From a virus: a DNA stretch of 21,609 nt. Under the pieces are notes generated by a model, which worked only from the letters and a program-made list of their open reading frames with translations, had not been told where the DNA came from and did no database searches. Shown in pieces: positions 3,382-16,676 of the stretch. The position numbers and the translations under genes are program-made. Each line of letters opens with the position of its first letter. Position 1 is the first letter of the stretch. The stretch is taken from the IMG/VR virus record IMGVR_UViG_3300034062_005659, positions 1 to 21,609 of that record; one strand, written 5' to 3'.

Positions 3382-4637
3382 CGCAGGCCGCGCCAGCGGC
3401 GCTGAGTATTCCGACGCCGCGAGTGTTTAAGCCGCTGCTGTCTCCGGCGCGTTACCGGGGCGCTTATGGCGGTCGTGGCTCGGGCAAGTCGCATTTCTTT
3501 GCAGAGCTGCTGATTGAGCGTTGCCTGCAGCAGCAGACGAATGCGGTCTGTGTGCGTGAGGTGCAGAAATCGCTGGCGCAGTCGGTGAAGCGTTTGCTGG
3601 AGCTGAAGATTACTGATCTGAGCGTTGGCCAGTTTTTTGAGATTCAGGAATCCAAAATTCTGTGCCCGCACGGCGGGATGATTATTTTCCAAGGTATGCA
3701 AAACCATACAGCGGAGTCGATCAAGTCGCTGGAGGGTTATGACATTGCGTGGGTGGAGGAGGCGCAGTCGCTCTCGCAGCGCAGCCTTGATCTACTACGA
3801 CCGACGATTCGTAAGCCTGGCAGTGAGCTGTGGTTTAGCTGGAACCCGAATCTACCGACTGATCCGGTGGATGCGCTGTTGCGTGGCGTAACTCCGCCGC
3901 CGAATGCGGTGGTGGTGCAGGCGAATTATCGCGACAACCCGTGGCTGCCGAATGTATTACGCGACGAGCTGGATTATGACCAGCGGCGTGATCCGGATAA
4001 GTTTTCGCATGTCTGGCTGGGTGAGTACCAGCAGAACAGCGAGGCACGCGTATTTAAGAACTGGGTGATTGAGGAGTTTGAAGCGCCAGCGGGTACATCG
4101 TTTCGCTTTGGTGCGGATTGGGGCTTCTCTGTCGATCCTTCAGTGCTAGTGCGTTGCTATCTTGATGGGCGACGGCTGTATGTGGATTATGAGGCGTGGA
4201 TGGTGGGCTGCGAGATTGATCAGCTACCTGACTTGTTTGATCGCGTACCTGAATCACGTAAGTGGTTTATCACCGCTGACAGTGCACGACCAGAGACGAT
4301 CAGCTACATGCAGCGGCATGGCTTCCCGAAGATTAATCCTGCGCGTAAAGGGCCGGGATCGTTGGAAGAGGGCATTGAGTTTTTAAAGAGCTTTGACATC
4401 GTGGTGCACCCGCGCTGCCAACACGTGATCGATGAGCTGACGCTGTACCGATACAAGACGGACTCACTGACCGGGCAGGTGATGCCGGTGCTGGACGATA
4501 AAGACAATCACACGATCGATGCCTTGCGCTACGCCTGCGAGGCAGCGCGGCAGGCGTCGGTGCCGACTACGACGATTCGTCATTTTCTGGATTCCCACGA
4601 AGGCGCGGGTGTGGGTAGTGGCTGGATGGGAGGATAG
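3378..4637 (+). CDS. terL: terminase large subunit (ATPase and nuclease)
   Basis: A 419-residue packaging motor of the PBSX/Sf6 type. The ATPase domain has Walker A GGRGSGKS at residues 31-38, Walker B YDIAWVEEA at 121-129 with the catalytic glutamates at its end, and a coupling-motif-like FSWNPNLPTDPVD. The nuclease domain has the three expected acidic positions of an RNase-H-like fold: D247 in FGADWGFSVDPS, D301 in ITADSARPE and D381 in NHTIDALRYACE. The length fits the family (about 410-470). It docks on the portal, pumps DNA into the procapsid and cuts the headful. All key residues appear intact. Followed after 5 bases by the portal gene. Confidence 0.95.
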   Translation: MTQAAPAALSIPTPRVFKPLLSPARYRGAYGGRGSGKSHFFAELLIERCLQQQTNAVCVREVQKSLAQSVKRLLELKITDLSVGQFFEIQESKILCPHGGMIIFQGMQNHTAESIKSLEGYDIAWVEEAQSLSQRSLDLLRPTIRKPGSELWFSWNPNLPTDPVDALLRGVTPPPNAVVVQANYRDNPWLPNVLRDELDYDQRRDPDKFSHVWLGEYQQNSEARVFKNWVIEEFEAPAGTSFRFGADWGFSVDPSVLVRCYLDGRRLYVDYEAWMVGCEIDQLPDLFDRVPESRKWFITADSARPETISYMQRHGFPKINPARKGPGSLEEGIEFLKSFDIVVHPRCQHVIDELTLYRYKTDSLTGQVMPVLDDKDNHTIDALRYACEAARQASVPTTTIRHFLDSHEGAGVGSGWMGG

Positions 4638-4642
4638 CGGTG

Positions 4643-7063
4643 ATGACGGATAAGGAGCTGGTGAACAAGGCGCATGAGCGCTTTACGCTGGCGGTGGAAG
4701 ACGCACGTCAGAACCGCGAACGCTATATTGAAGATTTAAAATTTTATGCTGGTGAGCAGTGGCCGGATCGGGTACGACGTGATCGTGAGATTCAGGATCG
4801 CCCCGTCTTGACGATCAATCGTCTGCCGATGTTTGTTCGGCAGGTGACGAATGACCAGCGTATTAATCGCCCGTCGATCAAGGTGAAGCCGGTGGACTCG
4901 GGCGCGGACATTGAGACGGCAGATGTGCTGTCGGGCGTGATCCGACATATCGAGCGCAACTCGAACGCTGACATCGCTTATGACAATGCTTTCTTCTATG
5001 CCGTCACAGGTAGCTTTGGTTTCTTCCGAATCGTTACAGATTACTGCGATGACCAGAGCTTTGATCAAGAAATACTGATTAAGCCAATCGTCAACTCACT
5101 GACCGTGTACTACGACCACGAGGCGCACTCGATTGACGGCAGTACGTGGCGCTACGCGTTTATCACGGAAGAAATCACCAAAAAAGAATTCGAGAAAAAA
5201 TACCCCGGCAAAAGTGGTGGCTGGGATCAGACCACAGGCGACACGCAGACATGGGTTATGGCCGACTCGGTACGCATCGCCGAGTACTGGTGGGTGACGG
5301 AGGAAGATCGCACGCTGCTGCAGCTGGAAGACGGCACGGTGATTGAGCAGAGCGAGTACGACAAGCTGCCACCTGAGGCGCAGACCGAGCCAGTGGATCA
5401 GCGCGTGACAAAGATGCGCGTGGTGAAGTGGGCAAAGATCGGTGGCAATGAGGTGCTCGAGCGCGGTGACTGGGCAGGCAAGTGGATACCGATTGTGCCG
5501 GTGTTTGGCGATATGGTGTTCATCGAAGGCAAGATGCAGCTGTTCTCGCTGATCCGCTTCGCTAAAGACCCGCAGCGACTTTTGAATTACTTTAGATCGA
5601 CCGAGACTGAGCTGTTAGCTCTGCAGCCAAAGGCACCGTATATCGCTGCTGAAGGTCAGATCGAAGGCTACGAGCAGATTTGGGCAAAAGCGAATCGAGA
5701 AAATTACTCGGTGTTGCCGTATAAGCCGACTACAGTCTCAGGACTGGCAGTACCAGCACCGCAGCGTCAGGCATTTGCCTCGCCACCGACAGGTGTGCTG
5801 CAAGGCGCAGAGAATGCGCAGCGCGACATGATGGCCACGACCGGTATTTATGAGTCGAGCCTTGGCATGCGCTCCAACGAACAAAGTGGTCGCGCGATTA
5901 TGGCGCGGCAGCGAGAGGGTGATGTCAGCACCTATCACTTCATCGACAACATGACCAGGGCGATCACGCACGCGGGTCGCATTCTGGTTGATCTAATTCC
6001 AAAAATTTACGACACCCCGCGCATCGTTCGCATTTTGGGTGAGGACGGTGCTGAAGAGATGGTGCAGGTCAATCAGCCGTTTGCAGCAAAAGATGACTAC
6101 GGCCGCGCGATTGAAAAAATATACGACCTGAGCACTGGGCGCTACGACGTGGTGGTCGAGGCCGGTGCCTCATTCAGCACCAAGCGCGAGGAAGCGGCAA
6201 TGTCGATGATGGAGATGGTAAAAACCAATCCACAGATCATGAGCATCGCCGGTGACCTGATCGTGAAGAGCATGGACTGGCCGGGTGCGGAGCAGCTGGC
6301 GGAGCGGCTGCAGATGATGCTGCCACCAAATTTGCAAAAGCCGAAAGAGGGTGAGTCGCAGATGCCGCCCGAGGTACAGGCGCAGCTGCAGCAGAGCGAA
6401 CAGATGATTCAGCAGCTCGATCAGGCGATACAGGCGATGACCGCCGAGCTTGAGAAAAAAGACCTTGAGCAGAGAAAACTCGAGATCGAGCAGTTTAACG
6501 CGCAGACCCAGCGTCTGAAAGTGCAAGGCGAGCTGGAGCTGAAGGTCGAGGAGATGTTCAAGGAGAAGCAGCAGGACACGACCGAGATGGATAAGGCCGA
6601 GCTGGATGCACAAGTCAGGCTGCTGACACTGGAAAAAACACTCGAGGCCAACAAAGAATTGAAATCAATCGAGCTGCGCGCAGAGATGCTCAAGGAGCGT
6701 ATGGCACGCGGGCTGATTGATATGGACATCGAGGGCAATGTCATTCCGGGCACAACGCTGCGCGAGATGATGAAAGAGATGGCCGCGCTCAGGCGCTCAG
6801 TCACTGGCACGCGCGAGATCGTGCGTGATGAGTCAGGTCGCGCCGTCGGGCTGCGCCCGGTCGAGGAGATCGAGGCGATGAAAGAGGAAGAGGAAGAGAG
6901 CAACACGCCATTAGCCGAGCTAGATGACGTGATCGGCGACCTCGCTAATCTGAAGGCGATGCTGGCGGCACCGAAAGAGATTGTGCGTGATGACACTGGC
7001 CGCGCGATTGGTGTGCGTCTGGCGCAAATGAATCAGGAACAAGGAGACGATGATGGGGATTAA
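4643..7063 (+). CDS. portal protein (P22 gp1-like)
   Basis: 806 residues from the ATG at 4643, with GGGAGGA 8 bases upstream; GTG at 4640 is too close. The N-terminus (RYIEDLKFYAGEQWPD, RPVLTINRLPMFVRQVTNDQ) is diagnostic of P22-type portals. The clip and wing region follows, with YDNAFFYAVTGSFGFFRI and later RSNEQSGRAIMARQREGD, where DNA and tail contacts lie. From about residue 570 the protein becomes a Q/E-rich coiled coil, corresponding to the barrel that reaches into the P22 head. P22 gp1 has 725 residues; the extra length is C-terminal and includes a duplicated 14-residue motif. Role: dodecameric gate for DNA entry and exit and docking site for terminase and tail. Its last 11 bases overlap the next gene. 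Confidence 0.93.
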   Translation: MTDKELVNKAHERFTLAVEDARQNRERYIEDLKFYAGEQWPDRVRRDREIQDRPVLTINRLPMFVRQVTNDQRINRPSIKVKPVDSGADIETADVLSGVIRHIERNSNADIAYDNAFFYAVTGSFGFFRIVTDYCDDQSFDQEILIKPIVNSLTVYYDHEAHSIDGSTWRYAFITEEITKKEFEKKYPGKSGGWDQTTGDTQTWVMADSVRIAEYWWVTEEDRTLLQLEDGTVIEQSEYDKLPPEAQTEPVDQRVTKMRVVKWAKIGGNEVLERGDWAGKWIPIVPVFGDMVFIEGKMQLFSLIRFAKDPQRLLNYFRSTETELLALQPKAPYIAAEGQIEGYEQIWAKANRENYSVLPYKPTTVSGLAVPAPQRQAFASPPTGVLQGAENAQRDMMATTGIYESSLGMRSNEQSGRAIMARQREGDVSTYHFIDNMTRAITHAGRILVDLIPKIYDTPRIVRILGEDGAEEMVQVNQPFAAKDDYGRAIEKIYDLSTGRYDVVVEAGASFSTKREEAAMSMMEMVKTNPQIMSIAGDLIVKSMDWPGAEQLAERLQMMLPPNLQKPKEGESQMPPEVQAQLQQSEQMIQQLDQAIQAMTAELEKKDLEQRKLEIEQFNAQTQRLKVQGELELKVEEMFKEKQQDTTEMDKAELDAQVRLLTLEKTLEANKELKSIELRAEMLKERMARGLIDMDIEGNVIPGTTLREMMKEMAALRRSVTGTREIVRDESGRAVGLRPVEEIEAMKEEEEESNTPLAELDDVIGDLANLKAMLAAPKEIVRDDTGRAIGVRLAQMNQEQGDDDGD
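6815..7018 (+). repeat. duplicated 14-residue motif in the portal C-terminus
   Basis: The motif EIVRDESGRAVGLR (6815-6856, residues 725-738) recurs as EIVRDDTGRAIGVR (6977-7018, residues 779-792). Ten of 14 residues are identical and the differences are conservative. The copies are 162 bases apart and flank an acidic stretch with a KEEEEES run. Known pattern: E-x-V-R-D-x-x-G-R-A repeats occur at portal and other structural protein ends in several phages, as short beta-turn segments. Function unknown. Confidence 0.8.
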
Positions 7064-8682: not shown

Positions 8683-9327
8683 ATGGATGCGTTCCAAAGC
8701 CCGGGGTTTCAGCCCTCGGCTTTTCAGGCGCTGGACGCAGCCAGTAACGTCGTCGCGTTTCAGTGCGGTGCTTGGCAAAGGACGGCCTTTCAGAGCTGCG
8801 GCGGCAAGTCCGGTTGCAACACTGCGTTTCAGCGCTCGGCGTTCCAAGACTCTGCTTTTCAGACGTGCTCACCAAAACCATCCACGCAGATTAGTGGCGG
8901 TGGTTTTGTAAAGCACCCGTTTAAGCAGCCGGTCTTTGCGCCGATTGTTCTGTCGCCCGAGCAGCTGATTGAAGAGCGGGTCAGGGCACGTGTCATACCG
9001 GCACCGGTAAAGCAGCTCGTTAAAAAAGTCGCCAAGCGCGCGCTGAGCGATCTGCAAAAGACCGATAGCGAGATCGAGCGCGAGCTACGCATCGAACTCG
9101 CGCAGCAGCAGATTGCGTATGACCGCGCCTACGCCAGAGCGCTTGAGCAAGAGCGTGAGCGACAGGTCACGGCAGAGATCAGGCGTCTGATGGCGCTGCA
9201 GGCGCAGCAGCAAGAGACCCAGCGCATCGCCGCTATTGCGACGCAGCTGGCTGAGCTGAAGCGACAGATTGATGAATTTAAGCGACGCGACGAGCAAGAG
9301 ATCGAGCTCTTGCTGATGTACAGCTGA
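8683..9327 (+). CDS. A(F/W)Qxx-repeat protein with a coiled-coil tail, unknown function
   Basis: 214 residues, with AAGG 8 bases upstream of the ATG. Residues 3-60 carry nine copies of A/G-F/W-Q, mostly spaced every five residues (MDAFQ-SPGFQ-PSAFQ, AFQCG-AWQRT-AFQSC, AFQRS-AFQDS-AFQTC). Four cysteines are interspersed (28, 39, 45, 62). A linker follows (ISGGGFVKHPFKQPVFAPIVLSPEQLI), then a long charged helix from about residue 115 to the end (LQKTDSEIERELRIELAQQQ, RRLMALQAQQQETQRI, LAELKRQIDEFKRRDEQEIE), a likely coiled coil. I cannot assign a function. Being third in the inserted fibre cassette and just before its terminator suggests a virion or fibre-linked protein. The repeat may form a stacked beta structure and the coiled coil may oligomerise it; both are inference. 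Confidence 0.75.
   Translation: MDAFQSPGFQPSAFQALDAASNVVAFQCGAWQRTAFQSCGGKSGCNTAFQRSAFQDSAFQTCSPKPSTQISGGGFVKHPFKQPVFAPIVLSPEQLIEERVRARVIPAPVKQLVKKVAKRALSDLQKTDSEIERELRIELAQQQIAYDRAYARALEQERERQVTAEIRRLMALQAQQQETQRIAAIATQLAELKRQIDEFKRRDEQEIELLLMYS
8689..8862 (+). repeat. A(F/W)Qxx amino-acid repeat region
   Basis: Nine copies of A/G-F/W-Q (AFQ seven times, GFQ and AWQ once each) in 58 residues, in three blocks of three with a strict five-residue period. Blocks are separated by 9-10 non-repeat residues. At DNA level the units are diverged (TTCCAA, TTTCAG, TGGCAA), so the protein pattern is kept under selection rather than being a recent expansion. Confidence 0.8.
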
Positions 9328-9433: not shown

Positions 9434-10219
9434 ATGCAAACAGAGACTACCGGCGCAGCAGCGACCGAGAACGCGCTTGATCAGGATACGACCGAGCACG
9501 AAGAAAGTACCCACCCGGAGCACGACACCGGAGATGAGGAGCAAGGCTCCCAAGACAACGACAACGAATCTGCCAAGGAAGAGCGCAAGCCCAACCATCA
9601 GCAGCGACGTTGGGAACGGCTTATACGCGAGAAGTACGAGGCGAAGGCACGGGCTGAGTATCTGGAGAAGATGCTCGCCATGCAGCAGTCGCAGCGAGGT
9701 GATAGTTCGGGTTCTGATCGGCCCTCGACTGAGCAGTTTGAATCACAAGAGGACTACGTCAAGGCGCTGGTTCAGCACGAGCTGACGCAGCGTGAACGCG
9801 CCAGTCAGGCGCAGGAGCGCGCGCAGCAGGATCAGCAGCAGGCAGCACGACGTGAGAAGTTGCTGTCAGAGGCCGAAGAGCTTGGCGATTTTGATCGCGA
9901 TGATTTTTTACAGAGTGTGCAGATCAGCCCGTTAATGGCCGATGCCATTCTGGATTCAGACATCGGCGCAAAAATCGTCGTGCACCTGAACGCTCACCCG
10001 CAAGAGGCAAGCCGCATTAGCGCGCTGCCACCCGCACGACAAGCCGCAGAAATCGGCAAACTGGAGATGAAACTTACCAGCGCGCCCCCTAAGAAATCCG
10101 CCGCACCGAAACCGATCCAACCCCTACAAGGCAAGGCACCGAGCAGTGATCTGAGCGATGAATTGTCACCTGATGAGTGGATGCGGCGACGGAACGCACA
10201 AATTTTTGGAAAGAGGTAA
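9434..10219 (+). CDS. scaffolding protein
   Basis: 261 residues with AAGGA upstream. The N-terminal 55 residues are very acidic and disordered-looking (EHEESTHPEHDTGDEEQGSQ). The middle is helical and Q/E/R-rich (YEAKARAEYLEKMLAMQQ; TQRERASQAQERAQQDQQQA). The C-terminus is proline/lysine-rich (APPKKSAAPKPIQPLQGKAP) and ends in a basic helix SDELSPDEWMRRRNAQIFGK. This matches the layout of P22 gp8-type scaffolds (303 residues), in which a basic C-terminal helix-turn-helix binds coat. It lies directly before the coat gene, as in P22. Role: directs procapsid assembly and portal incorporation, then leaves the head. Assignment rests on position and composition, since scaffold sequences diverge fast. 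Confidence 0.85.
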   Translation: MQTETTGAAATENALDQDTTEHEESTHPEHDTGDEEQGSQDNDNESAKEERKPNHQQRRWERLIREKYEAKARAEYLEKMLAMQQSQRGDSSGSDRPSTEQFESQEDYVKALVQHELTQRERASQAQERAQQDQQQAARREKLLSEAEELGDFDRDDFLQSVQISPLMADAILDSDIGAKIVVHLNAHPQEASRISALPPARQAAEIGKLEMKLTSAPPKKSAAPKPIQPLQGKAPSSDLSDELSPDEWMRRRNAQIFGKR

Positions 10220-10225
10220 ACCATC

Positions 10226-11404
10226 ATGGCAAATACAATCCTTACCCCCACCATGGTCACGCGCGAGGCTTTGCGCATCCTGCACCAGAAGTGTAATTTT
10301 ATTGGTTCGATCAACCGCCAGTACGATGACTCATTTGCACGCGAAGGCGCGAAGATTGGTGACTCACTGAAGATTCGTCTGCCAAACCAGTACACCGTGC
10401 GCGACGGTGTCACGATGTCGATTCAGGACACTATTGAAAACTCGGTCACGCTACAGGTGGCGAAGGTAAAGGGTGTCGATCTCTCGTTCACCTCGCAGGA
10501 ACTCACGCTCTCGCTCGATGATTTCAGCAAGCGCATTCTCGAGCCTGCGATGGCAGTGCTGGCCGCGAACATCGAGGCCGATGCATTGACGATGAAGAAC
10601 GATGTCTACAATCAGGCCAACAACACCGGCAACCCGATGAACCTATCAACGGCGCTGCAAGCAGGTCGCAAGCTGACTGAAGAGCTGACACCGACGGGCG
10701 ACCGAACTGCTTTGCTATCGCCTGCTGACAATGCGGCATTTGTCAGCTCGGTATCGGGCCTGTTCAACGACACCACGACCATCGCGAAGCAGTACCGCGA
10801 GGGCTACATGGGTCGCACCGCAGGCTTTGACTTTATGCAGAATACGCTACTGACACCACAGAACCGTGGCTCTGGTACTGGCTTTACCGTCACTAGCGTC
10901 ACTGGTAACAGCGTCATCACTGTCGCTGGTACGGGTCAGATCGTGGTGGGTGATGTAATCACCATCGCTGGTGTCAATCGTGTGCATCCAGAGACCAAGG
11001 TCAATACCGGCATCTTGCAGCAATTCGTGGTGACAGCCGCCACCGGCGCGCCAAACACCACCTCAATCACGGTATCACCGGCATGGGTCACCACCGGCGC
11101 ACTGCAGAACGTCACCGCCGCACCAGCCGCTGCCGCCGTAATTAGTATCGCTGGTACTGCAAGCACACCGTACTCCACCTCGCTTGCGTACCACCGTGAT
11201 GCTTTTACTTTCGTCACGGCCGATCTGGTGCAGCCGCAGGGTGTGGACTTTGCGGCGCGTGAGGTTATGGACGGCATCTCCATGTCGGTGGTGCGTCAGT
11301 TCCAGATCAACGACCGCAGCTTCCCGTGCCGTGTTGACGTCTTGTATGGCTACAAGACCATCCGCCCGCAGCTCGCGTGTCGCATCGCGAACCAGATCAG
11401 CTAA
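10226..11404 (+). CDS. major coat protein (P22 gp5-like)
   Basis: 392 residues, six bases after the scaffold gene, with GAGG upstream. The N-terminal part is typical of P22-family coats: TPTMVTREALRILHQKCNFI, RQYDDSFAREGAKIGDSLKI, and KVKGVDLSFTSQELTLSLDD followed by ILEPAMAVLAANIEADAL. This is the HK97-type shell fold with its long spine helix. From about residue 210 a valine/threonine-rich beta insertion follows (FTVTSVTGNSVITVAGTGQI...) and corresponds in place to the P22 I-domain. The C-terminus (EVMDGISMSVVRQFQINDRS, FPCRVDVLYGYKTIRPQLAC) closes the shell domain. P22 coat has 430 residues. A strong terminator follows, which suits a gene needing a very abundant message. Confidence 0.93.
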   Translation: MANTILTPTMVTREALRILHQKCNFIGSINRQYDDSFAREGAKIGDSLKIRLPNQYTVRDGVTMSIQDTIENSVTLQVAKVKGVDLSFTSQELTLSLDDFSKRILEPAMAVLAANIEADALTMKNDVYNQANNTGNPMNLSTALQAGRKLTEELTPTGDRTALLSPADNAAFVSSVSGLFNDTTTIAKQYREGYMGRTAGFDFMQNTLLTPQNRGSGTGFTVTSVTGNSVITVAGTGQIVVGDVITIAGVNRVHPETKVNTGILQQFVVTAATGAPNTTSITVSPAWVTTGALQNVTAAPAAAAVISIAGTASTPYSTSLAYHRDAFTFVTADLVQPQGVDFAAREVMDGISMSVVRQFQINDRSFPCRVDVLYGYKTIRPQLACRIANQIS

Positions 11405-11426
11405 TCACTGACTTGGCGATGAAATC

Positions 11427-11455
11427 TCCCCCGCCTCGTGCGGGGGATTTTTTTT
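11427..11455 (+). terminator. strong intrinsic terminator after coat
   Basis: A perfect 8-base stem TCCCCCGC (11427-11434) / GCGGGGGA (11440-11447) has a 5-base loop and eight T's. It is the strongest terminator in the window and lies between coat and the co-directional tail-accessory genes, so these need readthrough, antitermination or a promoter of their own. Confidence 0.92.
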
Positions 11456-11466
11456 AGGGGATCGGA

Positions 11467-12165
11467 ATGGCCACCGCACTGGACATTATCCAACGCGCGC
11501 TGCGCACGATTAATGTGCTCGGCGATGGCGAGACCGCGAGCGCGTCACAGGCACAAGACGCGCTCGATGCGCTGAATGATGTGATCGCCAGCTGGTCGAA
11601 TGAAAACCTGATGATCTACGTCACGACCAAGGAGCAGTTCAGCCTGATCTCGGGACAGGCCGAGTACAGCATTGGTATCGGTGGCAATTTCAACACCGTG
11701 CGGCCTGAGACGATTATGTTCGCCTTCACTCGGCTCAACGGCGTGGATTTCCCGCTTGATCTGTGGACGTATCAGCAGTACGACTCGATCTCGCTCAAGA
11801 GCTTAACCGGCAGCATACCCAGCGTGCTCTACTACGAGCCGAGCTACCCGCTCGGCAAAATCCGTATCTGGTGCGCGCCGGATTCAGGCGCACAGGTGCT
11901 CTACATCGAGTCACTCAAGCCGCTCACGCAGCTGCCATCACTCACCAGCGTGATCTCGCTACCGCCCGGCTACGAGCGCGCGCTGCGCTACGCATTAGCG
12001 CAAGAGCTGATGCTGGAGTACGGCACCGCAAATGTCGCTGTGATCGAGCTGGCCAAGAGCAGCAAGGCCGATCTGAAGCGACGCAATTTTGTGCCGCCGG
12101 TGATGGGTATCGACGCCATGATCCCGCGCGGTAAACAGGTATTCACGATCTATGAGCGGTTCTGA
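11467..12165 (+). CDS. tail accessory / packaged-DNA stabilisation protein (P22 gp4-like)
   Basis: 232 residues, with AGGGGAT before the start. The N-terminal helical part ALDIIQRALRTINVLGDGET followed by DALDALNDVIASWSNENLMI is the hallmark of P22 gp4-type head-completion proteins. The middle is beta-rich (FSLISGQAEYSIGIGG, RPETIMFAFTRLNGVDFPL, LYYEPSYPLGKIRIWCAP). The C-terminal helices (PPGYERALRYALAQELMLEY, AKSSKADLKRRNF) are also typical. P22 gp4 is shorter (166 residues). Role: it binds the portal ring after packaging and forms the platform for the rest of the tail. It is in its P22 position after coat. The stop overlaps the next gene by 14 bases. Confidence 0.9.
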   Translation: MATALDIIQRALRTINVLGDGETASASQAQDALDALNDVIASWSNENLMIYVTTKEQFSLISGQAEYSIGIGGNFNTVRPETIMFAFTRLNGVDFPLDLWTYQQYDSISLKSLTGSIPSVLYYEPSYPLGKIRIWCAPDSGAQVLYIESLKPLTQLPSLTSVISLPPGYERALRYALAQELMLEYGTANVAVIELAKSSKADLKRRNFVPPVMGIDAMIPRGKQVFTIYERF

Positions 12166-12706
12166 TCTGGTTGCTGCCGGCAGCCTCGGCATGCAGATAC
12201 ATGGCGAGACACTGCCGGTCGAGGGTCTGCTGCAGATCGAGCGTGATGGCGGTGTTGCGTTTCGGTTCGATGGTACCGATTCGCTCCTGCTACGTGCGCG
12301 CATTCAAAAAATTGGCGAGCGGCTGCTCGCGCTGTGCGGTCGGTGCGAGCTACCGGTTGAGCATGAGTTTGGTGATGGTCTCTACATCCGGCGGCTGCTG
12401 ATCCCAAAGGGCACGCTGATCGTCGGGCGTGTGCATAAGCTTGGCTGCGTCAACGTGGTTGAGCAGGGCGACATCGCGGTGCTCACCGAAAGCGGTGCGA
12501 TGCGCGTGCGCACGGGATTTTTAGTTCACTCACCCGCTGGCTTACAGAAGCTCGGCTATGCCAACGAGGACACCGTGTTCACGAATATTTTTAGCACCAA
12601 CGAGACCGACATCGAGACGCTCGAAGCAATGATTGTCTGTGACACGCACGATCAGATCGAGCTGGCGCTGGAGGATAGCAGCATGATGATTGAAGAGGGG
12701 GCTTGA
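12152..12706 (+). CDS. cupin-like virion-region protein
   Basis: 184 residues starting inside the end of the gp4-like gene. The core GLYIRRLLIPKGTLIVGRVH, CVNVVEQGDIAVLTESG, MRVRTGFLVHSPAGLQKLGY and ANEDTVFTNIF follows the cupin pattern: a beta-barrel with a glycine-rich turn, a GRVH histidine in the first motif and a proline-glycine turn in the second. A single-domain cupin of this kind with the wording 'xxIPxGxxxVGxxH' is common near structural genes of proteobacterial phages. A full set of metal ligands is not obvious, so enzymatic activity is doubtful. Function unknown; P22 has no gene here. It may be a small structural or head-tail component, but this is inference. Confidence 0.75.
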   Translation: MSGSDLVAAGSLGMQIHGETLPVEGLLQIERDGGVAFRFDGTDSLLLRARIQKIGERLLALCGRCELPVEHEFGDGLYIRRLLIPKGTLIVGRVHKLGCVNVVEQGDIAVLTESGAMRVRTGFLVHSPAGLQKLGYANEDTVFTNIFSTNETDIETLEAMIVCDTHDQIELALEDSSMMIEEGA

Positions 12707-12707
12707 T

Positions 12708-13496
12708 ATGTCACTCGGACTTAGCGCAGGCGCGATCGGACTGATCGGTGCCGGTGCCAGTATCGTCGGCGGCGCGATGGCCGCAGATGCCGCTGGTGAC
12801 GCCGCTGATGCGCAGCTGCAATCGGGTCGCGAGGCCAATGCCACGCAGCGCTACATGTACGACACCACGCGCGCGGATCAGGCACCGTACCGTGATGTTG
12901 GTTACTCCGCGCTCGATGCGATGCGCGCGCGGATGGGGCTACGCGTTGCGAACCCCTCGGTCATGCCCGGCGGTGTGGGTAGCGCGCAGTTCAATCCGCA
13001 GCAGCTGATGCAGGAAGACCCGAGCTATCAGTTCCGACTGGGTGAGGGCGAGAAGGGAATCAACCGCAGCGCCGCCGCCGGCAGCGGGCAGCTATCCGGT
13101 GCAACCCTTAAAGCACTGTCTCGCTTCAACCAGGACTACGCATCCAACGAATTCAACAACTCATTTAATCGCTTAGCTGCACTCGCCGGTGTTGGGCAGA
13201 ACGCGACCAATCAGGTCGGCGCTGCGGGTAGTGCCATGGCCAACAACGTCGCGAATTTGCAGACACAGATGGGCAATGCGCGCGCAGCGGGTTACGTAGG
13301 TCAGGCGAATGCGTGGAACCGTGGCATCGGCGGCGCGTTCGGCGCGCTGCAAGACCAGTCCATGCTGAACGCTTTTAATCAGTCGCGCAACCAGCCGTCA
13401 TGGGTGAACGCGCTCAGCGCGGGCTACGGCGATACCTCGCGCTACGACAGGTACGCGCCGACAGCCATCGCGAATGGCGGATGGGGGATTGAGTAA
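12708..13496 (+). CDS. DNA transfer / ejection protein (P22 gp7-type position)
   Basis: 262 residues from the ATG at 12708, with GAGGGGG about 8 bases upstream; the frame extends to an upstream TTG that is not convincing. It starts with a glycine/alanine-rich hydrophobic stretch (SAGAIGLIGAGASIVGGAMA) able to enter a membrane. Then comes the characteristic phage pattern PYRDVGYSALDAMRARMGL, GEGEKGINRSAAAGSGQLSG and LKALSRFNQDYASNEFNNSF. Known: homologues are annotated as 'DNA transfer protein' or internal virion protein and are ejected with the DNA to bridge the periplasm. It lies first in a row of three ejection-type genes; the stop and next start overlap (TAATG). Confidence 0.75.
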   Translation: MSLGLSAGAIGLIGAGASIVGGAMAADAAGDAADAQLQSGREANATQRYMYDTTRADQAPYRDVGYSALDAMRARMGLRVANPSVMPGGVGSAQFNPQQLMQEDPSYQFRLGEGEKGINRSAAAGSGQLSGATLKALSRFNQDYASNEFNNSFNRLAALAGVGQNATNQVGAAGSAMANNVANLQTQMGNARAAGYVGQANAWNRGIGGAFGALQDQSMLNAFNQSRNQPSWVNALSAGYGDTSRYDRYAPTAIANGGWGIE

Positions 13497-14296
13497 TGGC
13501 GATTGATGCATCCATTCCGCTCGGCGTGCAGCCGATGGAAGTACAGAGCCCGGTCAATGCATTTGCGAAGATGCAGCAGCTGCAGGGCATGCAGCAGCAG
13601 AACGCGATCAACGCGCTGGCGCTACAGGAGCGGCAGCGTGCGATTGCGGACGACGCAAACCTCAACCGAATCTACGGTCAGGCGTATGACGAGCAGGGCA
13701 GATTAGATCGAAACAAATTATTCAGCGGTATGGCCGGGGCCAACCTTGGCTCAAGAATCCCAGCAGCGCAAAAGCTGCTGAGCGAGCAGGACAAGGCACA
13801 GCTTGAGACCAGAAAAATCGAGCTGGATAACACCGGCAAATTAGTCGGCGGTATCGCCAGTCTCATGTACGGCGTGAAAGACCAGTCCAGCTACGACGCC
13901 GCGCGCAACGCCGTCGCGCAGCAGTACGGCGCAGAGGTGGCAAACCGGCTACCGCTGATGTTTAACCCGAATGATGTACAGCGCCGGGTGAATCAGGCGA
14001 TGACAATCAATGAGCAGATACAGCGCCAGCAGAAAGAGATTGATCAGCGGCTGAACCAAGAAAAATTCGACTGGGAAAAATCCTTCAACAGCGACAAGTT
14101 CAACTGGCAAAAATTCAATGACACCGCAAATCGCAATGTAACGATACGTGGTCAGAACCTCACCGATGACCGCGCGAGACAAAACATCGAGATCGCGAGA
14201 GAAAACGCTGCGCAAGGAAAAGCTCCGACCGAGGATGAGCGTAAGGCAGCGGGTTGGTACATTCAGGCCGTCGATGCTTACAACAACATGAGCTGA
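13496..14296 (+). CDS. internal virion / ejection protein, N-terminal part before an in-frame TGA
   Basis: 266 residues. The content is Q-rich helical (PVNAFAKMQQLQGMQQQNAI, ALALQERQRAIADDANLNRI), then a domain with AAQKLLSEQDKAQLETRKIE and YDAARNAVAQQYGAEVANRL, and aromatic repeats (FDWEKSFNSDKFNWQKFNDT). This layout is typical of phage internal virion proteins of about 400 residues. It ends at TGA (14294-14296) within TEDERKAAGWYIQAVDAYNN-MS. The same frame stays open after it for 151 codons that look like the missing C-terminal part, so this is probably one gene of 417 codons interrupted by a single stop. Options: a real nonsense mutation, programmed readthrough giving a short and a long form, or a sequencing error. 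Role inferred: delivered into the cell with the DNA. Confidence 0.8.
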   Translation: MAIDASIPLGVQPMEVQSPVNAFAKMQQLQGMQQQNAINALALQERQRAIADDANLNRIYGQAYDEQGRLDRNKLFSGMAGANLGSRIPAAQKLLSEQDKAQLETRKIELDNTGKLVGGIASLMYGVKDQSSYDAARNAVAQQYGAEVANRLPLMFNPNDVQRRVNQAMTINEQIQRQQKEIDQRLNQEKFDWEKSFNSDKFNWQKFNDTANRNVTIRGQNLTDDRARQNIEIARENAAQGKAPTEDERKAAGWYIQAVDAYNNMS

Positions 14297-14749
14297 GCGG
14301 TTAATCAGAAAAAGGATGTGCTCAGCCCGGGACTTTTTGAATCGATGGCGTCCGGTCTCGGTATGGAGGGCACCGCGAACGTGCTGCGCTCTAGCCCTCG
14401 TCAGCAGTTTTACACAGCGGCCTCTGCGCTGAGCGAGGCCGCGCTACGTGCCGCAACTGGTGCTGGTTATAACATGACCGAGTACCGTCAGAAGATTAAT
14501 CAATTCACCCCGACGCTAACGGATAGCGATAAAACACTGCAGCAGAAGATGCGCAGCGCGCGCAGTTTCATTGAGTCGTTGAGGCCACGCGCCGGGCGTG
14601 CGCTGAGGGATGTGACCGTGCCTGACCTTCAGCCGATGCCGGGGGTGGATGATATGAGCGGCCTACCGACGAATTCATCAGGGGCATTTGCTGACAACCC
14701 ATTTAGCGGGCACCCAAAGGCGATTCAGGACATCTTGAGGAAATACTGA
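14297..14749 (+). CDS. internal virion / ejection protein, C-terminal part after the in-frame TGA
   Basis: Continues the reading frame of the preceding gene directly after its TGA: A-V-N-Q-K-K-D and then VLSPGLFESMASGLGMEGTA, followed by SPRQQFYTAASALSEAALRA and ATGAGYNMTEYRQKINQFTP, then KTLQQKMRSARSFIESLRPR. The pattern 'QxxYxAAxxxxEAALRAATGAGxN' is a known C-terminal block of phage internal virion proteins, where it is joined to an N-terminal Q-rich part. Independent translation could start at GTG 14318, but the AAGGA there is only one base from the codon, too close to work well. I therefore read this as the other half of an interrupted gene rather than a separate one. The following gene starts 7 bases after the stop. 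Confidence 0.75.
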   Translation, partial: AVNQKKDVLSPGLFESMASGLGMEGTANVLRSSPRQQFYTAASALSEAALRAATGAGYNMTEYRQKINQFTPTLTDSDKTLQQKMRSARSFIESLRPRAGRALRDVTVPDLQPMPGVDDMSGLPTNSSGAFADNPFSGHPKAIQDILRKY

Positions 14750-14756
14750 GGCCGAG

Positions 14757-16676
14757 ATGACTGATGTGATGAATAGAGAGCGTCTGTATGAGGCGCTGAT
14801 CAAGGCCGACAAAGCGGGCGACGTCAACGCAGCAAAAACACTCGCTAACTATATTCGCGGCTTACCCGATCAAAGCGGCAGCCGTGTCTCTCAGATTCCA
14901 AACGAGTACGCCACTCCGGAAACTGAGCGTGCGATGCGTTTACGTGCGCAGCAGCCAGACCCTCCGAAAGACAATCTGCTGCAAATGGCGCAAGGCACGA
15001 TCATCGAAACGCCACTGACGCTCGCGACCGGCGCGGTAGCGATGCCGCTGGCAGCAGTGATCAAAGCGGGTGAAGGACTCTATAACTTCGCCACCGGCCA
15101 ACCACAAGCAGACCCCAAGCAACCCGGTAATAGCCTCGGTGATCTGGCATCACGCATCATCTACAAGCCGCAGACACAGACCTCGCGTGATCAGATCGGC
15201 GCGATCGCACAATTCATCGATGCATCAAAGCTCGAGGGCATGACCGGGCTACCCATTCTCAACGCACCGCGTAACGCGATGGCTGCTGTTGAGGCATCGA
15301 ATGCGCTACGCGTTCCGGTTGCGTCAGCGGGTGCTGCGGCCACTGCTAAAACCAAAAACGCTTTATCAACCGTGGCGCAATTGCCAGAGCGGGTCGGAAA
15401 CAGAATTGAAAACGCGATGGCCGCGAGAGACCCGCAGCTCGCTGGCGCGGGCGCGGCGATGACACCGGTTGCGACGCAACGCGTGGTCACCGCGCAAAGT
15501 CTGCCGGTGCCGATTCAGTTAACGCGTGGTCAGGCAAGCCGTGATTTTGGGCAGCAGCGTTTCGAGCGCGAGACCGCCAAGCTGCCGCAGGGTGAGCCGC
15601 TGCGTAATCGTTTCGCCGAGCAGAACCAGCAGCTGCTACAAAACTTTGAGCTGATGGCCGACGAGACCGGCATGCGCTCACCCGCATTGCGCCAGACCGG
15701 TACCGCCGTCGATAGCGCGCTGCGCGACAAAATTAAAGAGGCGACACAGAACATCAACCGAGCCTACGATGACGCGCGCGCTGCGGGTCATATGAGCGAG
15801 CTGGTAGATGTAAAACCGCTGGCCGACTTTTTAGAGAAGAACCGCGCGGCATCGATTAACGCGCCGATTCTGCGCTCGGCACGCAGCGAGCTAAAAATCG
15901 TTGACCCGGGCAGTACGCGGATGGTCTCGATCAATGATCTGGAAGAGCTGCGCAAGAGCCTGCGCGCGCAGATCGAGCCCGGCACACCAAACTCAAACTA
16001 CGGTAACCAGATGATCGCGATGATCGATAACGCGACCAAGGGCCGTGGTGGTCAGCTGTACAAAGAGGCGCGAGGCTTGTACGAGGATTTTGCGAGAACC
16101 TTCATCGACAAGGGTGCAGTCGAGAAAATCACCCGCTTCAAAAAAGGCACCACCGATCGCGCGGTCGCGCTTGAAGATGTGTTCAAGCACTCGGTGTTGG
16201 ACGGTAGTCTTGATGATGTAAGCGCGCTGCGGCAGGCGCTGGCGCAGTCCGGCAAGAATGGTGAGCAGGCATGGCGCGAGCTACAGGGCGAGACGCTGCG
16301 ACATATTCAGGATCAGGTGATGAAGAGCGCGGCGCTGGATGTGAACGGTAACCGCGTGGTCTCACCGGCCATGCTGGATCGTACGATTCGCTCGCTCGAC
16401 GCCGACGGCAAGCTGGAGTTTTTATTCGGTTCGCAGAAGGCGCAGCAGATTCGTGATCTGAACGAGATCGCAATGCACGTGCTGACCGCACCACCGGGCG
16501 CGGTAAACACCTCAAACACTGCGACGGTGCTGGCCGGTATCGTTGATCTGATGGGCTCGAGCATGACCGGGGTGCCGCTGCCGGTAGCCAGCGCAGTGCG
16601 CTACGGACGCGACGCGCTGCGCAACCGTGCGATCAAGCGCAAGGTGGATAGCGCGCTTAGCCCAACTATGCCGTAG
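14757..16676 (+). CDS. large ejection / internal virion protein (P22 gp16-type position)
   Basis: 639 residues, with GAGG before the ATG. The N-terminal helix-hairpin RLYEALIKADKAGDVNAAKT followed by LANYI is a repeat-like element common in phage ejection proteins ('A-x-AGDxxAAxxLA'). A hydrophobic stretch TPLTLATGAVAMPLAAVI at about residues 85-102 could insert in a membrane. The rest is long alpha-helical with alanine-rich segments (AGAAATAKTKNALSTVAQLP) and a central domain (QRFERETAKLPQGEPLRNRF, IKEATQNINRAYDDARAAG). No lytic transglycosylase motif is visible. Role inferred from size, helicity and position after two other ejection-type genes: released into the host envelope to help DNA cross it. 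Confidence 0.75.
   Translation: MTDVMNRERLYEALIKADKAGDVNAAKTLANYIRGLPDQSGSRVSQIPNEYATPETERAMRLRAQQPDPPKDNLLQMAQGTIIETPLTLATGAVAMPLAAVIKAGEGLYNFATGQPQADPKQPGNSLGDLASRIIYKPQTQTSRDQIGAIAQFIDASKLEGMTGLPILNAPRNAMAAVEASNALRVPVASAGAAATAKTKNALSTVAQLPERVGNRIENAMAARDPQLAGAGAAMTPVATQRVVTAQSLPVPIQLTRGQASRDFGQQRFERETAKLPQGEPLRNRFAEQNQQLLQNFELMADETGMRSPALRQTGTAVDSALRDKIKEATQNINRAYDDARAAGHMSELVDVKPLADFLEKNRAASINAPILRSARSELKIVDPGSTRMVSINDLEELRKSLRAQIEPGTPNSNYGNQMIAMIDNATKGRGGQLYKEARGLYEDFARTFIDKGAVEKITRFKKGTTDRAVALEDVFKHSVLDGSLDDVSALRQALAQSGKNGEQAWRELQGETLRHIQDQVMKSAALDVNGNRVVSPAMLDRTIRSLDADGKLEFLFGSQKAQQIRDLNEIAMHVLTAPPGAVNTSNTATVLAGIVDLMGSSMTGVPLPVASAVRYGRDALRNRAIKRKVDSALSPTMP

Follow-up and report, generated by a model that had tools for sequence, protein, structure and literature searches.

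An in-frame TGA in a putative P22-type ejection-protein gene of an uncultured phage is most probably an isolated point lesion

A reading frame for a presumed virion protein that is interrupted by one TGA codon raises the question of whether the stop is a device for making two forms of the protein or an accident in an otherwise ordinary gene. The case considered here lies in a virus contig of metagenomic origin in the IMG/VR collection, and the window, that is, the whole stretch of DNA analysed, is 21.6 kb long. The features on which the argument turns are as follows; L002 is the nearest relative.

13496–14749, plus strand: whole ejection-protein gene, assigned by position to gp20; 417 codons in the nearest relative, interrupted here by one TGA
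13496–14296, plus strand: 5' part, 266 aa from an ATG start; the N-terminal part of single-gene relatives is homologous to it
14294–14296, plus strand: in-frame TGA; AGA (Arg) stands at the same site in L002
14297–14749, plus strand: 3' part, 150 sense codons and the terminal TGA; it holds most of the family's conserved C-terminal domain
14318–14320, plus strand: GTG, the first in-frame restart codon of the usual kinds, with AAGGA 1 base away, unusable as a ribosome site by standard spacing
12690–13496, plus strand: upstream neighbour, gp7-like DNA ejection protein (phrog_598 match, 1.6e-45)
14757–16676, plus strand: downstream neighbour in the gp16 position, 639 aa, intact, related to the same-position protein of MW202710

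Behind the TGA the frame runs through 150 sense codons to the TGA at 14747–14749, which makes 418 triplets with both stops counted; the joined protein is 417 residues long. Of 5000 base shuffles of this 450-base stretch, only 13 stay open, and each of its remaining five frames contains 5–12 stops; the open frame is therefore more than chance and continues a conserved gene. The original prediction that one TGA splits a single gene, with both parts in the same phase, is borne out, as the frame is open to 14749 and the homologues are single genes.

The same stretch bears on the idea that there are two separate genes, or that translation restarts at GTG 14318 to give a split, two-chain protein. 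This codon is in frame, 24 bases past the start of the TGA, which is the point in favour of the idea. However, the Shine-Dalgarno-like AAGGA (14312–14316) is just 1 base from it, and the second half thus has no usable ribosome site, as had been noted at the outset. The break would also fall inside a predicted helix, and in no relative is the protein encoded by two genes; the relatives have single ORFs, so a restart is unused there. Taken together, these points make a two-gene or restart arrangement very improbable.

Late genes of a short-tailed phage are found in the window. They encode the small and large terminase, a P22-type portal, a scaffold, a P22-type coat, an adaptor and the phrog_598 ejection protein, and further include the interrupted gene, the 639-aa gene and genes for head closure, the tail fibre and lysis. 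The other structural genes that could be matched to families are full-length open frames. The PHROG of the 12690–13496 product also includes P22 gp7, and the three consecutive genes, the first of them related to P22 gp7, agree with P22 in order and sizes. Because the upstream neighbour shares its PHROG with P22 gp7 and the P22 order is 7-20-16, we place the interrupted gene second in a P22-type ejection-protein cassette (gp7-gp20-gp16), as an assignment of position rather than of proven membership. The position of an internal virion or ejection protein proposed for the gene is thereby supported, and by that position its product would be packaged in the virion and ejected with the DNA. Salmonella phage P22 gp20, a DNA ejection protein, occupies the same place in the cassette and is of similar length (471 aa), but its gene is uninterrupted and its sequence similarity to the family (alignment A5) is weak (hhalign probability 45.5%, 103 columns), so that the gp20 assignment is positional only. 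Neither half of the interrupted gene had a PHROG match. In Rhodoferax phage P26218 (P26218_28), Phage DSL-LC05 and podovirus MW202557 the second ejection gene likewise lies between gp7-like and gp16-position genes. The N-terminus of these proteins is homologous to that of the window gene, and the C-terminal domain is common to the window, P26218 and MW202557; unlike the window gene, all three genes are uninterrupted (462–470 aa).

The most direct evidence on the nature of the stop comes from L002 (IMGVR_UViG_3300044621_000888), the sole IMG/VR contig that covers the stop site closely, and the comparison at this site rests on that one close relative. An exact pattern over the stop site found only L002 in IMG/VR and nothing in GTDB genome contigs, and the joined query had no relative among the latter. 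L002 has the same gene order as the window phage, is 97.7% identical to it over 2081 bases and encodes a 98% identical ejection protein, but there the gene is uninterrupted: positions 3409–4662 form a single ORF of 417 aa with AGA (Arg) where the window has TGA. One base separates the two codons, and the flanking frame keeps the same register with no gaps. Upstream of the stop, 20 codons differ synonymously and 6 nonsynonymously between the window and L002; behind it, the figures are 6 and 0. The downstream half has thus been under selection at the protein level over most of the divergence of the two phages.

We searched for further relatives with a profile (A4) built from four single-gene relatives; a seven-sequence alignment (A3) was too diverse for scanning. 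The A4 profile matches the window gene over almost its full length, and the segment past the stop, taken by itself, matches the family C-terminus (hhalign E=1.3e-5). Scanning IMG/VR with A4 gave 80 loci. No internal stop was found in any of the 88 loci with a profile match; 82 of them are complete single ORFs of 381–820 aa (67 clusters at 90% identity), and the other 6 are incomplete only because the contig ends. The gene is likewise single in the named phages P26218, DSL-LC05, MW202557 and MW202710. Distant named-phage relatives emerged with the joined L002 protein as query, and tblastn with either half gave no hit among named phages at 1e-5. The comparison of homologues with the joined protein, suggested as a check on the split-gene reading, thus returned single genes and no homologue encoded as two.

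In an alignment of 42 sequences, 28 of the 34 near-invariant columns lie behind the stop. The stop itself corresponds to column 267, which is occupied by D, E, Q, G, K, S, R, T, A or N, and never by Trp or Cys. An AlphaFold model of the L002 protein (mean pLDDT 77.7, pTM 0.44) places residue 267 inside a predicted helix spanning residues 246–270, with a local pLDDT of about 88. Since the residue falls within this helix and most of the near-invariant columns follow it, the stop does not coincide with a natural protein boundary and interrupts the conserved C-terminal domain. A profile search against solved structures found no credible match, Foldseek had no meaningful match in the PDB, and its 22 low-TM matches (E up to 0.001) were to viral proteins, nearly all uncharacterised.

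These data also bear on the most consequential alternative, programmed UGA readthrough yielding a short and a long ejection protein. The two parts share one frame with no usable internal start, and the downstream half shows only silent differences from L002; its conservation would be expected under readthrough as well as after a point lesion, though the divergence can predate the stop. On the other hand, the stop is absent from every relative examined, that is, from L002 with its sense codon and from the 88 family loci, and it falls within a predicted helix ahead of most conserved columns. The window contains no tRNA gene, suppressor tRNAs included; the stop site has no match in Rfam, hence no SECIS-like RNA, and the fold of the RNA behind it is no more stable than that of shuffled sequence (z 0.39), giving no sign of a stimulating structure. 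The proposal that readthrough makes two forms finds no support, given the sense codon in L002, the 82 uninterrupted genes among 82 complete relatives and the location of the stop in the conserved domain, and we regard it as highly unlikely. We give equally little credence to a real but leaky stop, with host UGA readthrough or suppression leading to two packaged forms where relatives package the long form only.

The least probable explanation of all is that the phage or its host reads UGA as sense (Trp, Gly or Sec). Nothing beyond the in-frame TGA itself speaks for it, and TGA terminates 13 of the 23 other plus-strand ORFs listed for the window, in accordance with the initial observation that about half of the genes end in TGA and the code is standard. 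Homologues never have Trp or Cys at the corresponding position, and neither a suppressor tRNA in the 21.6-kb window nor a SECIS match was found. We therefore rejected a recoded UGA, TGA being a normal terminator here, and selenocysteine, on the basis of the SECIS search and of column 267. Readthrough, selenocysteine and an alternative code are all without positive support.

The gene is whole in L002 and in all complete family members examined, and the stop removes part of a conserved C-terminal domain; because of this, we consider it very probable (about 94%) that the TGA is a single-base nonsense lesion in an ordinary P22-type ejection gene, being either an error in the consensus or, in a defective phage or prophage, a genuine nonsense allele. 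Such a stop would have no programmed role. The alternative of a nonsense mutation or base-call error, already raised in the original prediction, is thus the one favoured by the AGA codon of L002 and the intact gene of the relatives. A change of one base would turn the Arg codon into TGA, and this change may be a wrong base in the metagenome contig, a minority read taken up at low coverage, or a true allele.

A consensus error, or a rare read taken up at low coverage, with the phage population keeping the sense codon, has roughly an even chance of being correct. Substitution errors in short-read consensus sequences are rare, which counts against it. In its favour, the source is a metagenome contig, the lesion is isolated among intact genes and one base suffices; moreover, this protein class is reported to be required for infectivity (PMC8954989, a review, and PMC4992974), and a lethal allele in the majority would be unusual.

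A genuine nonsense mutation, carried by a defective phage or a decaying prophage and too recent for other decay, is a serious but somewhat less favoured possibility. Stop-creating changes make up about 3.6% of all single-base changes in the gene (134 of 3753), and alleles of this kind thus arise regularly; in P22, particles of normal appearance form in the absence of gp20 (PMC4992974). Against it, no other checked gene is disrupted, and the 21.6 kb showed neither an integrase nor a host flank nor any other sign of a prophage. We favour the contig error slightly, since a majority allele that is lethal would be unexpected in a phage intact in other respects.

Were the stop real, the product would be only 266 residues long and would lack most of the conserved C-terminal domain. 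In P22 the ejection proteins are reported to be dispensable for building particles but needed for DNA delivery, and loss of their genes by deletion is reported to be lethal (PMC4992974). By analogy, particles could still form, DNA delivery would fail and the phage would be non-infectious, unless the host suppresses UGA. Amber mutants of P22 gene 20 resemble the window gene in having a nonsense codon inside the ejection gene and an N-terminal fragment left, and encapsidation of gp20 amber fragments is mentioned in PMC4992974; the ambers, however, are laboratory mutants, and the stop described here is a TGA in an uncultured contig.

Overall, there is no evidence of a new expression strategy at this locus, only of an ordinary gene with an isolated nonsense mutation or error, and when a phage contig from a metagenome shows a single in-frame stop, comparison with relatives should come before any proposal of readthrough. 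As a by-product, the survey defines, from 88 loci with a match, a little-annotated family of podovirus ejection proteins that share a conserved C-terminal domain. Its members L014–L093 are widespread and carry a C-terminal block like EQAQRDFINAVLRRESGAAI...EFDNAxKQYFPQPGDS; no scanned member had a Pfam match, and PHROG matches were weak for most.

Several minor observations concern the rest of the window. Identity to L002 rises from 94.3% at 10118–12940 (coat region) to 97.7% at 12989–15069 (ejection genes), and the gp7-like proteins of the two phages are a 10-residue insertion apart and otherwise nearly identical; this pattern resembles mosaic exchange among the late genes. At 8683–9327 there is a 214-aa protein whose first third consists of AFQ-type repeats (SPGFQPSAFQALD...VVAFQCGAWQRTAFQ...NTAFQRSAFQDSAFQT), with no match in Pfam, PHROG or named phages. 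Two minus-strand ORFs, 1089–1331 and 1387–1977, oppose the direction of the other genes; neither had a Pfam match, and the longer one had none in PHROG. One of the pair has a signal-peptide-like start (MRLIFTFVLFIAQFANAQ) and one has membrane-like stretches, and they are possibly an insertion of the moron or superinfection-exclusion type.
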